26,600 nt of DNA from Chrysochromulina tobinii (taxonomy: Eukaryota; Haptophyta; Prymnesiales; Chrysochromulinaceae), in assembly GCA_001275005.1 (NCBI GenBank), contig JWZX01001569.1:1-26600 (forward strand). Reading direction: 5' to 3'. A model generated the notes under the pieces. It saw only the letters and a list, made by a program, of their open reading frames with translations, did no database searches and was not told the origin of the DNA. Both the position numbers and the translations under genes were made by a program. How positions within the stretch are numbered: position 1 is the stretch's first letter; the number at the start of each line of letters is the position of its first letter. Shown here piece by piece: positions 2,500 through 26,000 of this stretch.

Positions 2500-4573
2500 A
2501 TGCGAGCCACAATGCTGCCCGGCAATTACGACTTGCGCGCCATCTCGGCGCGTGCGACCGCGGCGGAGCGACTCGGCTCCAAGCTTCACCAGGCATGCTA
2601 TGCTGCCAACGAGGCTGAGGCCTTGCGGCTCATTGAAGAAGGCGCAGACGTGAACTACATATCGAAGGCGAATCAGCAGAGCCCGCTGCACCAGTGCGCG
2701 ATCCGCGGCCTGCGTACAGCGGGCCTGAAGCTCATTGAGCGCGGTGCTCGCCTCGACCTGCGCGACTACTACGACCGCACTCCGCTTGACGCTGCTCGAG
2801 AGCTCGGCCATCCAGAGTGCGTGCAGCCTTGGAGGCGGGCGGCCACTCAGAGAGAGGAAGCGCCGTCGTCGTGCCCGCCCTCGCCGCCCGACGTCGATCA
2901 GAGTGCGGCCGACGATGCTGACGAGGAAACCGGGATGGACGCCATAGATGCCGTGCCTGCGGCTTTCGACTGGGACGCCGGTGCTGGCGCCGATACCATC
3001 TTCTTCGCGAGCACTGCGGCCCGCCCTCATGACGCGCTGGCAGACATTGCGGCCACGCTGGATGCGAGTTGGCTCACGCGGGCGCCCAAGTCGCTGCAGG
3101 GGCAGGTGCTCTTCACCGTGCGTGCGGCTGTCCCGCCGGCAGCGCTGGCCGCGCGCCTGCTGCGGCTGCGCACCCTTGATTACATCCACGTGATGCTCGT
3201 GAGCTGCGATCTCGGCGAGAATCTCGGCGAGAAGTTGCTCCCGGGCGGCACGCATGCATCCATCGAGGTGCCGAGCCTCGTGGCGGTGCTCGAGGCTGCG
3301 CGGGCCGTGCCGCGCTCCCGATTCGGCGCCGCACTCACCCTGTGGCGCGCGCTGACTGCGGCCGACACGTGCAGTACGGCTGATCGGCGCGAGGCTGCGG
3401 CGACGCTGCCGGATCGCGCGCTTGTCTTCCGTGCTGTGGGGAAGCGCGGCGGTAAGGGTCACAGCTTCAGCTCCGACGAAGCCAAGCGCGCGGCCAAGCG
3501 AGGTCTGACGGAGGCCACCGGCTGCCTCGGCTCGACTGGAACGTACCACTTTGAAGTGCTCTCGCAGGTGCGATCTCCATTGATCTCCCTGGTGGTTTGC
3601 CCTGGTTTGCCCTTGATTGCCCTTGATTGACCGCTTTGAGGTGCTCTCGCAGGTCCATCGGCAGCGCTTCTGGCTGGGCTTGCGACTCAACCAGCTGCCC
3701 CTTGCGCCGCAGCCCACGGCCCCTCAGCTGCGTGAACGCCCCTTGCCCTTGCGTACGCTCGGGGATGCTGACGAAGCTGACGAAGCTGACGAAGCTGACG
3801 AAGCTGACGAAGCTGACTTGTCCTCGCGTGCGCTCGGGGACGCTGCGCCATCACGAGCATCGCCGCCTTTTGGGTCAGCCGGACGGGCGACAAGACCGAA
3901 GCGGCCCCTGCCCACCGCCACGGCACACGCGCGTGGGCTCGATCGAGAAGCTGTGAACAGCAAGGAGGTGCCTGTGAACGGCGAGGAGGTGCCTGTGAGC
4001 CTCACACGTTGGCTGAGTGCGCGGCTGACATCCTTGGGCCTTGACGGCCCCCGTGATGCCCGCGATGCTGTGACGCCTCTGTGGGAAATGCCGCTACGCG
4101 AGCAGCATGCTTTCAAAGCGGCCGAGATGGATCATCTCCTTCGGACTCAGCTCGCGCCGAGCTCGCGCCGAGATGCGGTCGAGATGGACGATCTCGCGAT
4201 CGAGATGGATCGTCTCCATCGGACTCAGCTTGCATCACCGGCCGGCCCACCCGAAGCCCTTCGCTGTGGAGCCCTTCGCTGTGAGCCGTTACGCTTTGCT
4301 GCAGGCGAGGACGCTGCCGCGGCTTGCGCCGGGATCAGCAGCTGCCCAACGACGTCGACGTTTGTGCCAGCCCGGGATGTGTGCGACTTGCATGTCGGCT
4401 TTGACCGCGAGTGTCTCCCGTGCTGCGGATTCCGACTGGGGCTCGCGGGCAGTGTTGACGGGCGGTCGGTGGCGAGCCCGGGAGGAGTGCCGATTGTACC
4501 CGAGTGGATGGTGGCGGTGGCAGCGGAGCTCACAGCATGGCTATGCGAGCGTGCGACGGGCGCCGCCCAATCC

Positions 4574-22547: not shown

Positions 22548-23112
22548 TCATGGTTCCTGTATCCTGAGAGGACCTGTGACGCACGGCCACGGGCACGCGA
22601 TTCCGAAATGAGCCGCGAGCGAGGTCGATCGCAACGTGTATCGGATAAGCGATGGGACGGCGATGCAGGGACCGCTCACGTGATCGCGGGGACGTTGTAT
22701 GTACGAGTAGTATGAGCAACCCGCGGTCCAGATTCATTTCCTTTATCATTCCCGTCCGCAAGCGTGACAAGCCTCTCAGGTCCGGCAAACGGCATCACGG
22801 GGTTGGCGGGTTCTCACGTTCACACTAGACGATCTATAGATCCAACTTTGCCACCCCCCCCCAGTCACCCAGTCGGTCTGGCCGCGAGTGCTCCGCCTCC
22901 CTGCGCCGACACGGCGTCCGCGTGATACGGGCGTAGAGCCGGGTCGACACATCTACACACTCCGACGCGGCGCAAGCAGGCACAATCTGCTCGACGCTGC
23001 AACGCGGCTGTAGGCGTCTCAGTCGTCGTCGTAGTACGGATACTCCTCGTCCTCCTCGTCGTCCTCCTCCATCTCCTCCTCCCCATCTCCGCCAAAATCG
23101 TGATCCGCCAAA
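22548..23112. repeat. Segmental direct repeat, right copy
   Basis: This copy matches 19011-19600 in the same orientation. It begins with tcatggttcctgtatcctga and runs through a region of near identity around 22870-23035 into the last codons of the minus-strand F-box/ankyrin gene (stop 23021-23019). It carries the intact version of the acidic gene end. Confidence 0.9.
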
Positions 23113-26000
23113 GTCGTGAGGTAGCTCACCGCGACCAGGTTCGGGTGAGAGAATTCCCCGGCGTGATATGTGTAGCTCCCAGCCCCTTGTGTGTAGCGCC
23201 GCAAGTTTCGGCCGTCATGCGCGGGCGCGCCGTGCTGGGCGGCCCACTTGTGCACCTCGACAATCTCGCGTTTGAGCCGCGGCCACTCGCACGGGTGGTG
23301 GAGCAGGGGATGCTCTCCCCATGGGCTCTCGACGGACCGAAGCCACTGCGACGGAGTCGGACGCGCTGTGGTGAGCATTTGCATGCAACAGGGGATGCCC
23401 TCCCCAGGGCGCTGTGGTGAGCACTTGCATGCACGGGTAGGTCATCAGTGGCAATCAACGTACCTGGTAGGGCGACGGGTAGATCGAGGCGGGAGGGAGT
23501 CGGGCGCGCTGTGGTGAGCACTTGCATGCACGGGTAGGTCATCAGTGGCAATCAACGTACCTGGAGGGTGCGCAGCTTCGAGGCGCCGATTGCGAGCTTG
23601 CACGCGTCCTCCGGCAGCCGGAACCCGTGCGCATGCGCCCAGCGCAGCGCCACCAGCGGGGTCTCCTCCTCATCGGGCTCACCTGTGGGGAAGAGAGGGC
23701 GCCGTGGTGAGCACTTGCATGCCGCGGGGTCTCCTCCTCATCGGGCTCACCAGGCTCCCGATCGAACCGATCGACGATCAGCCGTTGGAGCAGCCGAGGG
23801 CCAGGGGCGAAACCGAGGCTGAGGGCCCAGTCCAGCACGCCCAGCTGACGATGGCACGCGGCGCCGTCGAGCAGTTCAAATACGCCCGAACCCTCGGGCG
23901 CCTCCGGGATGCCCGAAGGGACGCAGCCAGTACCTGTGGGGAGAGGGGAGGGGGCGCTGTGGTGAGCACTTGCATGCGGAGGCAGCATGCATGCCCTCGC
24001 GCGGCTCCCCGGAGCTAGTGCTCACGACGGCGCCCTTTCTTCCCCTCAGGTTAAGCTCCCCGGAATGCGTGCCGCTCCCAGCCAACGGCGGCGCAGCAAG
24101 AGCCATGGCGGTACCTGTATTCACAGCGGTACTTGTATTCACAGAAGTACCTGCAACTCCGGCGGCGGCGGCGGACGCGGAGGGGGCGGTGGTGGCGGTG
24201 GCGGCCGCGGCGTCCCTCGCCTCCTCCTCGTCATCAAAGGTGCTCGTCTTGAGCAGCCGACGGACGAAGCACCACTCCAGCGTGGCGAGCTGCCCCACAG
24301 TGGCCGCATGCCGCACCTGATGAGGGAGGCCATCCGATGCAATCAGACGCAATCACCTCCAATAGCGCCGCCACACAGTGGCCGCATGCCGCACCAACTC
24401 GAACTCGAGATTGAACCATCAGATGCGGCCAGATGCGGCCAGATGCGGCCAGATACGGCCAGATGCACTCAGATGCAATCAGCCGCACCAACTCGAGCTC
24501 GAGATTGAACAGATTGGAGCGATCGTCATAAGAGTGGTTCGGCTCGAGCTTGCTGCACAAGAGGTCGTACAAATAATCGAGCACGCTTGTCAAGCCATTG
24601 TGGCCCGCCTGATGAGGCGCGCAATCGGCGGTCATCATCATCAGTCGCGTCCTCAGGGCTCGTCAGTGGCGTCATCGGTGGTTCGTCATCAGTGGCTCGG
24701 CATCAGTGGTTCGTCAGTGGCGTCATCAGACGTCATCAGTGGTTCGGCATCAGTGGTTCGTCATTGGCGTCATCAGACGTCATCAGTGGTTCGTCATCAG
24801 TGGTTCGTCAGCCCGCTGACGCAAGCACCTCAAGCAGCGAAGGCTCCGGCTCGATGCGGCAGCCGCGCTCCACGCACCTGTGGGGAGAGGGGAGAGGGCG
24901 CCGTGGTGAGCACTTGCATGCACGCGGCAGCCGCGCTCCACGCACCAGAAGAAGAGCGTCGCATCGCCGCCACGGCCAGTCTGGTCTACCTGATTTGGTT
25001 CGGGACCCGCGACGGCTGCGAGCGTCACGCCGTCGTCCCACGCGCAATGGTTCTTTCGAGCCCACTGGAGTACCGGTAAGTACCCGCGCCTGGCCGCTGC
25101 GATGCAAGTCGTGGCATCCCAGGGGCATTTGCGGTAGCGCAGCCAACGAAGCACCTCGAGGCTCCCTCCATCCGCAGCTGCGGCGGTCACGGACTCGTCC
25201 CACGCCAGCCGCTTCGCGTTCGCCTTTGGCCCCCCCTTGACCTTCTCCAGGGCCCTCAACCACTCAAGCACGTGAAGATGGCCCGCCCTCGCCGCCTCCT
25301 CGTACGCCGACACGTCGAGCCGGTAGCCCAACCGGTAGGCCTCTTCAAGCGTGCTGACGCTGCCGTGTCTCGCGGCGCAGCTGCACACGCGGTGCGTGGC
25401 CGAGCTGTGCATGTACTTGGCGTCGTCGAGCGGGAAGCCGCCGAGGTCGCGCGCGAGGCGTAGCCGGGCCACGCTCATAGTCCATCCGAGAGGGTGGAGG
25501 GCCTCATGACAGAAGCGCTTGCTCGAGGCGACGCCCGACGCGAAGGTGCGTGGGCCACCGAGGAGCGGCGTGTGGTGGAAGACGGCGTCGCGCAATGTGC
25601 GGCACGAGAGCGCGGCGCACATCGCGTCGGCGGCGCACAGCTGGCCGACGATGGACTCCACCAGCTCCTGCTTGCCCTCGAGCAGCCGAAACGGCGAGGG
25701 CGCGACGATCTCGGGCGGCTCACGCTGCACGCGCGCTTGCAGGCTGGCGACGATCGGATTGATGAGCGCGAGCATCGCCGCGCTCTCGTCGCGAGAGAGC
25801 GCCGTCGTCGAGATAAAGCCTCGGAACTCGTTGATCATGAGCGAAAGCACCGGCTCGTCGCGAGGCGGATGCTGGCCATATGCGATGCCAGTGCTCACAG
25901 GATTATGGGGGGCAAACTGGCAGACGGGCATCGTCCAGCGCTTGTTCTCTGCGATAGGCGTGAGCGCCTGGCTCTCGTTCATGGGCACGCGGTCGCCCAT
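23019..26000 (-). CDS. F-box-like / ankyrin ('CPWD'-type) repeat protein, seven exons
   Basis: Minus-strand exons 26000-24946, 24877-24817, 24608-24489, 24316-24151, 23933-23751, 23682-23561 and 23345-23019 join in frame to 677 residues plus stop. ATG 26000-25998 has gagATGG context. Residues ~102-145 resemble an F-box (PFRLLEGKQELVESIVGQLC). From ~205 on come ankyrin-like repeats of the algal and giant-virus CPWD class (GHLHVLEWLRA, GGSLEVLRWLRYRKCPWDAT, GYLPVLQWARKNHCAWDD). Splicing restores repeat logic: CVERGCR-IEPEPS, LEVLAS-AGHNG, LELEL-VRHAATVGQLATLEWC, REP-GEPDEE and RTLQ-WLRSVES. The protein ends in an acidic tail (EEEMEEDDEEDEEYPYYDDD). F-box proteins select substrates for SCF ubiquitin ligases; that role is inferred. 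Exon 2 needs a GC-AG junction, or a GT donor 12 nt upstream that drops four residues. Introns carry introner-like elements. Upstream of it, divergently, is the rhodanese gene. Confidence 0.85.
23346..23560 (-). mobile_element. Composite intron 6 with three introner cores and a 55-nt direct repeat
   Basis: This 215-nt intron (GTACGT...GTCGCAG on the minus strand) contains the core at 23511-23529, 23414-23432 and, with one mismatch, 23368-23386. A 55-nt segment is repeated perfectly at 23506-23560 and 23409-23463. A strong donor follows the inner acceptor-like CCTACCAG, so the 45 nt at 23508-23464 could be spliced as an exon. It reads as nested insertions or duplications of the same element. 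Confidence 0.85.
23683..23750 (-). mobile_element. 68-nt introner-like intron 5
   Basis: The intron equals a 27-nt copy of the downstream exon start (23750-23724, identical to 23682-23656) plus a 41-nt element (23723-23683) ending TTCCCCACAG. The donor GTGAGC comes from the duplicated exon sequence and the AG from the element. The core lies at 23704-23722 on the plus strand. Phase 1; splicing gives REP-GEPDEEETPL. Confidence 0.93.
23934..24150 (-). mobile_element. 217-nt intron 4 with introner core and a nested inverted copy
   Basis: Intron GTACTT...CCCCACAG, phase 1, flanked by the 8-nt direct repeat caggtact (24153-24146 and 23936-23929 on the minus strand). It contains the standard core at 23959-23977 next to its acceptor, a 16-nt tandem repeat around gtacttgtattcacag near 24111-24145, and an inverted introner copy at 24014-24054. 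Confidence 0.88.
24014..24054 (+). mobile_element. Inverted introner copy with 10-bp target-site duplication
   Basis: On the plus strand the segment reads agtgctcacgacggcgccct then a pyrimidine tract and cctcaggt. This is the same order as the minus-strand element (agtgctcaccacggcgccct, pyrimidines, cacaggt), so it is inverted relative to the gene. It is flanked by perfect direct repeats gctccccgga at 24004-24013 and 24055-24064. Confidence 0.8.
24317..24488 (-). other. 172-nt intron 3 built by stacked tandem duplications
   Basis: Intron GTGCGG...CATCAG, phase 0. The first 21 nt of exon 4 (24316-24296) recur perfectly inside the intron at 24394-24374. A 26-nt segment at the exon 3 end (24485-24510) recurs at 24391-24416 with one mismatch. 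Between them lie four or five copies of gatgcggcca-type 10-mers at about 24421-24465. It lacks the introner core. Either duplicate could supply a functional donor. Confidence 0.8.
24609..24816 (-). other. 208-nt intron 2 with possible GC-AG ends and a minisatellite
   Basis: To give the ankyrin-like LEVLAS-AGHNGL the intron must run from GCGGGC (24816) to CATCAG (24609), a GC-AG intron flanked by duplicated tca-gcgggc. A GT donor at 24828 would also keep frame but delete VLAS. Most of the intron is a repeat of cgtcatcagtggtt-type units (24657-24812), so its length is probably polymorphic. Confidence 0.65.
24878..24945 (-). mobile_element. 68-nt introner-like intron 1
   Basis: The intron equals a 22-nt copy of the downstream exon start (24945-24924, identical to 24877-24856) plus a 46-nt element (24923-24878) ending CTCTCCCCACAG. 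The duplicated exon sequence gives the donor GTGCGT. Phase 2, restoring TG|G (Trp) in LFFWCVERGC. The core is at 24903-24921 on the plus strand. Confidence 0.93.

Follow-up and report, generated by a model that had tools for sequence, protein, structure and literature searches.

Evidence for a recently mobile introner family with long target duplications in the haptophyte Chrysochromulina tobinii

Background

Where new introns come from has long been asked, and their origin has seldom been caught in the act. SINE/LINE-type retroposition leaves target duplications of variable length, a variable 5' end and carriage of 5' flanking sequence, and intron gain by tandem duplication of exon segments involves AGGT. 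Among introners, target duplications of 3-9 bp are reported in the literature. In Symbiodinium microadriaticum family 1 and Chrysochromulina sp. family 5, one splice site is the element's own and the other is co-opted (Gozashti et al. 2022, PMC9860276); both are described there with 4-bp duplications, and the Symbiodinium elements also with inverted ends. The detection rule given in the same source calls for similarity between introns that starts within 10 intronic nt of both splice sites. Among the introner elements of Micromonas, class IE-C has a mean length of 67 nt, and canonical introns favour AG/GTGCGT (PMC3879977). Aureococcus elements are reported with direct and inverted repeats of constant length (PMC7789003), and a tandemly duplicated exon segment has also been described as a source of introns (PMC4974935).

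The window analysed here is a stretch of 26,600 nt from the haptophyte Chrysochromulina tobinii (contig JWZX01001569.1, positions 1-26,600, forward strand). We propose that it very probably carries members of a recently and repeatedly mobile introner family with long target duplications. A further reading, plausible and slightly short of probable, is that the family represents a class of introners working with long, variable duplications by primed or template-switch copying, by neither a fixed-stagger transposase nor reverse splicing. The gains differ between relatives with 97-98% identical proteins, the sequence before insertion has been identified, and a unit of this size lends itself to reporter tests, so that the splicing and insertion steps are directly examinable.

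Results and discussion

The host gene and its introns

Seven exons of a minus-strand gene were joined into a single open frame of 673 aa (Table 1), with four in-frame options for the 5' end of intron 4. The initial annotation had called it an F-box/ankyrin gene. In Pfam analysis of the protein, one ankyrin match (Ank_4) reached 21.0 bits, below the cut-off of 22.7, and ankyrin Pfam domains are present in most listed homologues, the closest listed one (P0121) having none; an ankyrin-like protein is therefore a weakly supported label, and the F-box part, for which the protein gave no Pfam match, is unsupported. Satellite-like repeats lie within introns 2, 3 and 6 of the gene, and the window gave no Rfam match at gathering scores.

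The core gtggtgagcacttgcatgc occurs on the plus strand at 23368 (one mismatch), 23414, 23511, 23704, 23959 and 24903, where it had been reported before (expected by chance 0.01; largest count in 100 shuffles 1). All six copies fall within introns 1, 4, 5 and 6 of this one gene with its seven exons in frame, which confirms their earlier assignment to its introns. A seventh match on the opposite strand (163-181) has three mismatches and looks like chance. Introns 1 and 5, both of 68 nt, could be re-found as previously outlined, each consisting of a perfect exon duplicate (22 and 27 nt, respectively) and an element ending in CAG, with no other sequence. The type-B extension of intron 6 and its second copy belong to a perfect 59-nt repeat (23409-23467 and 23506-23564).

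Table 1. Coordinates of the host gene and of the element copies in the window
Feature	Position	Strand	Basis
Host gene, ankyrin-like protein, 7 exons	23019..26000	-	joined exons; homologues with ankyrin domains
Exon 1	26000-24946	-	exon joining
Exon 2	24877-24829	-	exon joining
Exon 3	24608-24489	-	exon joining
Exon 4 (four in-frame options for its 3' end)	24316-24151	-	exon joining
Exon 5	23933-23751	-	exon joining
Exon 6	23682-23561	-	exon joining
Exon 7	23345-23019	-	exon joining
Intron 1, 68 nt, introner type A	24878..24945	-	exon joining; present in environmental homologue P0121
5' copy of 22-nt target duplication, intron 1; gives the GT	24924..24945	-	perfect match to 24877-24856
3' copy of 22-nt target duplication, start of exon 2	24856..24877	-	perfect repeat
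Intron 1 element, 46 nt: gt, core, pyrimidine tract, CAG	24878..24923	-	core search
19-nt core GCATGCAAGTGCTCACCAC with branch-point-like GCTCAC, A at 24907	24903..24921	-	core search
Intron 5, 68 nt, introner type A	23683..23750	-	exon joining
5' copy of 27-nt target duplication, intron 5; gives the GT	23724..23750	-	perfect match to 23682-23656
3' copy of 27-nt target duplication, start of exon 6	23656..23682	-	perfect repeat
Intron 5 element, 41 nt: core 23722-23704, tail through CAG	23683..23723	-	core search
Element at 3' end of intron 4: core 23977-23959, tail CCCCACAG	23934..23977	-	core search
Intron 6, 215 nt, three cores: 23529-23511, 23432-23414, 23386-23368	23346..23560	-	exon joining
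Type-B 5' extension gtacgttgattgccactgatgacctacccgt, own GT	23530..23560, again at 23463-23433	-	repeat search
Decayed element copy, opposite orientation, within intron 4	24014..24051	+	inverted repeats I1-I4

A dispersed element family

In the 53-Mb host genome 1,667 cores were counted when at most one mismatch was permitted, versus none for the reversed sequence, and near-identical introns stand at many unrelated gene positions, as expected of introners. The exact core plus CCACAG is found in 399 copies, with GT next in 338. A sample of 211 copies included 158 with the splice tail, GT standing directly after CAG in 134 of them; a duplication was found in 118 of the 158 (control 8/786), and the remaining 40 tailed copies are presumably old. 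Many dispersed copies with duplicated flanks, the check proposed in the initial annotation, are thus present, and its remark that duplications this long are unusual holds against the reported 3-9 bp and fails within the family, where they are the rule. Perfect non-tandem duplicates (n = 23) range from 18 nt, the floor that we set, up to 41 nt with no common length, most of them spanning 22-41 nt. An earlier sample of 100 duplicated copies gave the splice-site statistics: the upstream duplicate starts with GT in 75 and GC in 9, and is preceded by C at -3 in 54, A at -2 in 51 and G at -1 in 76.

The distance from the 5' splice site to the core is 18-51 nt in 118/118 duplicated type-A copies, in which the stretch upstream of the core is mostly local exon sequence; the duplicate makes up a median 38% of intron length. 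A mirror-image subfamily, type B, has its own GT and draws its 3' AG from the duplicate, the own-3'-site and own-5'-site forms being built on one common core. Unit and duplicate are often repeated together in tandem. The longer the duplicate, the shorter the element tends to be (correlation of lengths -0.65 among the 94 non-tandem copies and -0.40 among the 23 perfect ones), and the 94 introns with non-tandem duplicates are 63-96 nt long, which we read as selection on intron size and not as a length fixed by the mechanism. The A of GCTCAC in the core is invariant in 211/211 sampled copies, as are C6, G11 and C12; since GCATGC is conserved equally to the branch-like motif, conservation alone cannot single out the branch point. 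Folds of intron 1, intron 5 and the element were no better than shuffles (z 0.02, -0.72 and 0.07, respectively), and a structured RNA was set aside. A bacterial sequence (L062) contains the 19-mer, by eye with neither tail nor duplicate, and was taken as a chance match.

The left flank is common to a copy on another contig in 21 of the 56 type-A copies with at least 5 nt between duplicate and core, compared with a mean of 2.06 and a largest value of 8 in 50 shuffles. The clearest shared flanks link C684 to C1628 and C1185, C784 to C126, C1191 to C214, and C913 to C65. The pair C783/C546 was dropped because the shared stretch also lies within the C546 duplicate, and C2235, with only 5 nt in common with C684, was not counted.

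Splicing and empty sites

From the sequence we infer that the introners are removed by splicing and the mRNA restored. Pfam domains continue across the removed introners (Orn_Arg_deC_N in L134 and DSPc in L044). Testing for open frames across 90+90 nt gave no separation in a genome this GC-rich (joined 51/63, unspliced 49/63, antisense 50/63) and was therefore replaced by a comparison with junctions shifted by 1 or 2 nt. Of the 56 joined junctions, 19 lay in a frame that stayed open for 450 nt or more in each direction, versus 4 and 5, respectively, after shifting; a shifted junction had the longer open frame in 12 of the 56 and tied in 19.

At the DNA level, a 25-nt target is single in environmental contig L061 and double around the element in L018; L061 may be chimeric, because only its bases 4180-4554 align to the loci compared from the host genome. 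A wider pattern search in viral contigs returned L061 again and nothing else, and comparison of the loci with one another gave no usable pair for a further empty site, C101 and C235 being near duplicates. Two protein-level cases come from a MORN gene (224 homologues found, best 120 listed, 51 of those aligned). Among the 51, junction 1 is filled in one (P0148, 98% identity), lacks the insert in 49 and is uninformative in one. In P0146 and P0147 (97%) junction 1 is empty, yet the sequence reads into the older introner at junction 2, and the two could in principle be partly spliced transcripts; in P0139 and P0140 (91%) both introners are absent. The duplicate of the younger insertion is perfect over 27 nt, that of the older one 85% over 20 nt. 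Insertion into exons is seen, then, at three empty sites in two genes, as the initial annotation had anticipated for other strains; the window gene itself gave none. Introns 1 and 5 look recent, but in the single environmental homologue that is near-identical to this gene (P0121, 99%) intron 1 is already in place. With dispersed copies, long duplications and empty sites in other genes, the introner interpretation is well supported.

Route of insertion

The mobile unit would measure about 40 nt; in it, the 19-nt core with its branch-point-like GCTCAC leads into GGCGC and a pyrimidine tract, and CAG closes the unit. It resembles a movable module that combines branch point, pyrimidine tract and 3' splice site. 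Insertion would take place in exons, at breaks whose staggered ends leave a long overhang, and would typically duplicate 20-45 nt of exon, and the upstream duplicate would provide the missing 5' splice site, splicing then restoring the original mRNA; type B would obtain its 3' AG in the same manner. Survivors in genes would mostly be copies whose duplicate starts with GT at the CAG joint, and the exactness of this joint may reflect selection rather than mechanism, because the fixed end in type B is the left one. The route would be copy-and-paste, its likeliest form being the copying of a template from a primer at the cut, much as in target-primed reverse transcription, since the duplications vary in length, the left end varies and carries donor flank, and the two ends do not form inverted repeats. 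The variable duplication and variable 5' end of target-primed reverse transcription are both found; taken alone, the primed-copying step is plausible and falls slightly short of probable. No autonomous partner of the element was found, and the reverse-transcriptase domains (26 matches, 22 above cut-off) show no link to it.

DNA repair with template switching, in which a broken or stalled end copies an introner stretch via microhomology and re-enters the gene upstream, duplicating what lies between, is possible and somewhat unlikely. Tail-less copies frequently join within GGCGC also present in the target (by eye, without control), the tandem repeats are in keeping with it, and CAGGT is shared by the donor and many targets in the base counts given above; CAG/GT is the expected 5' splice-site consensus anyway, however, and the choice of a single core on more than 1,600 occasions calls for an explanation. 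Most known introners are considered to move as DNA (PMC9860276), and this element too is flanked by duplications, as a non-autonomous, MITE-like transposon moved by cut-and-paste with a fixed short stagger would be; the perfect duplications have no single length and exceed 3-9 bp, the ends (GCATGC.. and ..CACAG, read directly) are not terminal inverted repeats, and the left end varies from copy to copy and brings donor flank along, which makes such an element distinctly unlikely. For fungal introner-like elements it has been proposed that excised introns splice back into RNA or DNA. Such reverse splicing would suit the exact CAG end of tailed copies and the GT that follows it, but should copy the whole intron and leave the target unduplicated. 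In this family the part of the intron up to the core is mostly local exon, tail-less copies also insert, and L061 versus L018 shows duplication upon insertion, so that this route is highly improbable. Satellite expansion in old introns, or later insertion into existing ones, could be read from the satellite-like repeats of the window gene; with introns 1 and 5 made up of duplicate and element and the empty sites intronless, coincidental repeats are refuted for the polymorphic loci and hardly credible overall.

Comparison with described systems

The element resembles SINE/LINE retroposition in its variable duplication, variable 5' end and 5' flank carriage, whereas it is only about 40 nt long, with no A-rich or LINE-like 3' end seen and no reverse-transcriptase link. 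With Symbiodinium family 1 and Chrysochromulina family 5, the latter compared by description and not by sequence (PMC9860276), it shares dispersed similar introns, one carried splice site, a second one from the duplication and an unchanged mRNA length; it differs in its long and variable duplicates, ends that are not inverted, carried donor flank, and own-3'-site and own-5'-site forms on one core. Short introns, a branch-point motif, a pyrimidine tract and recent gain recall Micromonas and Aureococcus introners (PMC3879977, PMC7789003), and GTGCG/GTACG in the element introns resembles the Micromonas AG/GTGCGT preference, whereas the duplicate is variable in length, unlike the constant repeats reported for Aureococcus. 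As in tandem exon-segment duplication (PMC4974935), a duplicated exon piece gives a splice site, but the two copies in this family are separated by a foreign, dispersed element.

The family falls outside the similarity rule of PMC9860276, which is a search rule and not a biological definition, in all 118 duplicated type-A copies. On our reading, searches by this rule would pass the family over, local exon making up the first third of each intron, which suggests that such families are overlooked; if so, introner-driven intron gain would be undercounted across eukaryotes.

Copies without a tail

Copies that lack the tail persist and are mostly in frame, the insert length being a multiple of three at 16 of 21 sites under a rule altered after the data had been seen (AGCG-type copies and those with a splice tail within 150 nt excluded); the first rule (39 copies) gave 20 of the 28 above control level. 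If the proposal is correct, the unit would survive in either of two forms, as a spliced intron or, in copies without the tail, as an in-frame coding insertion. By eye, the five out-of-frame exceptions are cases of a missed splice tail or type-B extension, and L002+1248, among the 16 in-frame sites, possibly has a missed tail as well.

Introner introns of the window gene

The initial annotation is exact on the six cores, on both 68-nt introns and on the perfect 22- and 27-nt exon duplicates. The gene lies on the minus strand, where its seven exons join into a single 673-aa frame. Of the proposed F-box/ankyrin label, the ankyrin part is plausible from the domains of most homologues and a sub-threshold Ank_4 match, but no F-box was detected. 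Retention of introns 1 and 5 would shift the frame, since 68 is not a multiple of three; intron 1 is already read through in P0121, an environmental cluster of 95 sequences and the sole near-identical homologue (99%). Introns 2 and 3 could be the decayed remains of a different introner family (Table); the start of intron 3 (GTGCGGC) recurs at the next exon.

Table. Coordinates of features in the window, in L061 and L062 and at loci with tail-less insertions
Locus	Position	Strand	Feature
Window	24609-24828, 24317-24488		Satellite-like repeats (introns 2, 3)
Window	24014-24051	+	Decayed element in intron 4, reverse orientation, short repeat GCTCCCCGGA on either side
L061	4180-4554		Only part aligning to the loci compared
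L062	1703-1721		Exact 19-nt core without tail, Flavobacteriales MAG
L006	2238-2497		Tail-less insertion with duplicate
L029	1213-1280	-	Tail-less insertion with duplicate
L015	593	-	Tail-less insertion with duplicate
L108			Tail-less insertions with duplicates
L116	140	-	Tail-less insertion with duplicate
L143	1992	-	Tail-less insertion with duplicate

Family size and anatomy of the element

The window is a complete contig (C658) of a 53.15-Mb assembly of 2,253 contigs, and the copies anticipated elsewhere are indeed many and dispersed: a search for the core that allowed one mismatch gave 1,667 matches (808 on one strand, 859 on the other), and one for the reversed pattern gave 0. There are two designs of element, type A with its own pyrimidine tract and CAG, the GT coming from the exon duplicate, and type B with its own GT, the AG coming from the duplicate. 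The exact core with CCACAG 5-35 nt away was found in 399 copies, 338 of them with GT next, and the type-B extension plus core start (34 nt, at most 3 mismatches) in 171. The core in the Flavobacteriales MAG is probably due to chance. Near-identical stretches in contigs C101 and C235 (298 nt at 100% and 265 nt at 99.6%) are haplotypes or a strain mixture within the assembly.

Anatomy was studied in 211 distinct copies and their flanks, allowing up to 2 core mismatches and excluding 8 copies at locus edges; the sample is non-random, its loci having been picked either for their sequence match or for their position in the list of matches. A pyrimidine-rich tail ending in YAG is present in 158 of the 211, with GT next in 134 of these. 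The duplicated flanks seen in the window proved general: an anchored duplicate (score at least 10) accompanies 118 of the 158 tailed copies, against 8 of 786 shuffled pairs, and is lacking in 40; in a prior, stricter test 111 of 180 copies exceeded the 99% level of shuffled pairs. Among the 94 non-tandem cases the duplicate has a median length of 28 nt (range 10-47) and the intron one of 78 nt (range 63-96); 23 of these duplicates show no mismatch over 18 nt or more, the longest reaching 41 nt. In the 118 copies the core lies 18-51 nt from the 5' splice site, and the duplicate accounts for 38% of the intron at the median. Core positions G11, C12 and A15, within GCTCAC, are invariant in all 211 copies, T13 and C14 show one change each, and C6 is likewise invariant, GCATGC being conserved as strongly as GCTCAC. 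The A of GCTCAC lies a median 28 nt upstream of the YAG end, and the tail is 87% pyrimidine. From the general branch-point consensus, yUnAy, GCTCAC is taken as the putative branch point.

In published accounts (PMC9860276, PMC7789003, PMC3879977, PMC11782384, PMC12768974), target duplications of earlier families are given as 3-9 bp, 4 or 8 bp in the illustrated examples, and the direct repeats of Amoebophrya as 3-5 nt. The detection rule of Gozashti et al. 2022 (PMC9860276) asks for similarity starting within 10 intronic nt of both ends; the type-A copies of this family do not satisfy it at the 5' end. PMC11782384 describes direct repeats of 4-30 bp with 71-100% similarity near all 213 introns of all kinds studied. 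No introner family with long duplications appears in the titles or abstract openings among the matches listed; it is not claimed that long duplications have never been seen before.

Empty sites in relatives

The MORN gene at L025 carries two introners of 69 and 72 nt, both in frame by coincidence, the younger with a perfect 27-nt duplicate and the older with one of 85% over 20 nt. In 51 aligned homologues, among the 120 listed, the insert at junction 1 is absent from 49, is present in P0148 (98% identical), and P0165 is uninformative. P0146 and P0147 (97%) lack the insert at junction 1 yet continue into the older introner at junction 2, an indication that their sequences come from genomic DNA, not spliced RNA. 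Neither introner is present in P0139 and P0140 (91%). P0140 has a tandem peptide repeat, VTAICNGHLG, mid-protein in an otherwise conserved sequence, possibly read-through of another repeat insertion. The nearest named proteins are those of Chrysochromulina parva, which points to a haptophyte host close to that genus: the MORN protein matches at 61% over 87%, and a kinase, with two models, at 58% over 89% and 91% over 30%. Environmental proteins are closer (up to 94%) than these named ones.

A further empty site is found in L061, an environmental contig retrieved through the core (viral collection, IMGVR 3300027760_000958) and alignable with L018 of the C. tobinii genome. The 25-nt GTGCGAGCTCGTGGCGAGCGTTACC occurs once in L061 and twice in L018 (one base apart), where it flanks a 50-nt element. 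The next downstream introner is present in both, its upstream duplicate being 14 nt short in L061. Other open reading frames of L061 (1-4180) look bacterial or phage-like by eye, and the contig is probably a chimera of such DNA with algal DNA.

Mechanism of insertion

Our first choice is primed copying. Copying with a variable left end would carry donor host flank along 5' of the core, and it is favoured because the host flank of one copy recurs 5' of the core elsewhere: 21 of 56 type-A copies in which at least 5 nt separate the duplicate from the core have this flank in common with a copy on a different contig (50 shuffles: mean 2.06, maximum 8), the type-B extension accounting for part of the 21. 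In the clearest pairs, chosen by eye, the duplicate end at C684 recurs in C1628 and also in C1185, there with a small deletion; C784 and C126 share 15 nt, C1191 and C214 share 15 nt with 1 mismatch, and C913 and C65 share 11 nt, again with 1 mismatch, or about 20 nt by eye when one extra G is allowed. The shared stretch belongs to the duplicate at one copy, which is therefore read as donor and the other as daughter. Template-switch repair ranks a close second. A transposase with fixed stagger is argued against by the varying duplicate length and by element ends that are not inverted, and reverse splicing by the duplication that comes with insertion.

The mirror-image type B carries GTACGTTGATTGCC.., with AG supplied by the duplicate; duplicates of 10-25 nt occur in 12 of 19 rows, counted with tandem rows and without a control, and a further row (L090) is type A. 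In type B the fixed end is the opposite one, so selection may lie behind the exact CAG|GT joint. At 26 places in the assembly, long open frames contain reverse-transcriptase domains, 22 of them above the Pfam cut-off; these are candidate copying enzymes.

Predicted splicing and tail-less copies

Domain and frame continuity lend indirect support to predicted splicing. Of 6 proteins scanned, 2 have a domain that continues unbroken across the removed introners, ornithine-decarboxylase in one and dual-specificity phosphatase in the other; in the remaining 4 the best domain match lies elsewhere or there is none. Over 56 loci, the joined frame stays open on each side for at least 450 nt in 19, versus 4 and 5 with shifted joins, for at least 300 nt in 24 versus 15 and 13, and for at least 150 nt in 35 versus 26 and 28; the true join beats both shifts at 25 loci, ties at 19 and loses at 12.

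The element may have a second fate, persisting also as coding sequence. By the rule used, 32 copies lack the splice tail; in 27 of them the duplicate exceeds the 99% level of the control, and these reduce to 21 sites, 7 of which lie within the single locus L108. Insert length is divisible by three at 16 of the 21 (p 7e-5), the other five being explained by eye and post hoc; the rule had been narrowed after a first pass, which gave 20 of 28 copies. Introner introns have no such bias (21, 14 and 21 by remainder, 56 loci). Open frames reach 810 aa, in GC-rich DNA that often has long open frames. At the tabulated loci most insertions are a multiple of three in length and sit inside long open frames, and some form 45-60-nt tandem arrays. 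Several joints of tail-less copies lie, by eye, inside a GGCGC common to the target.
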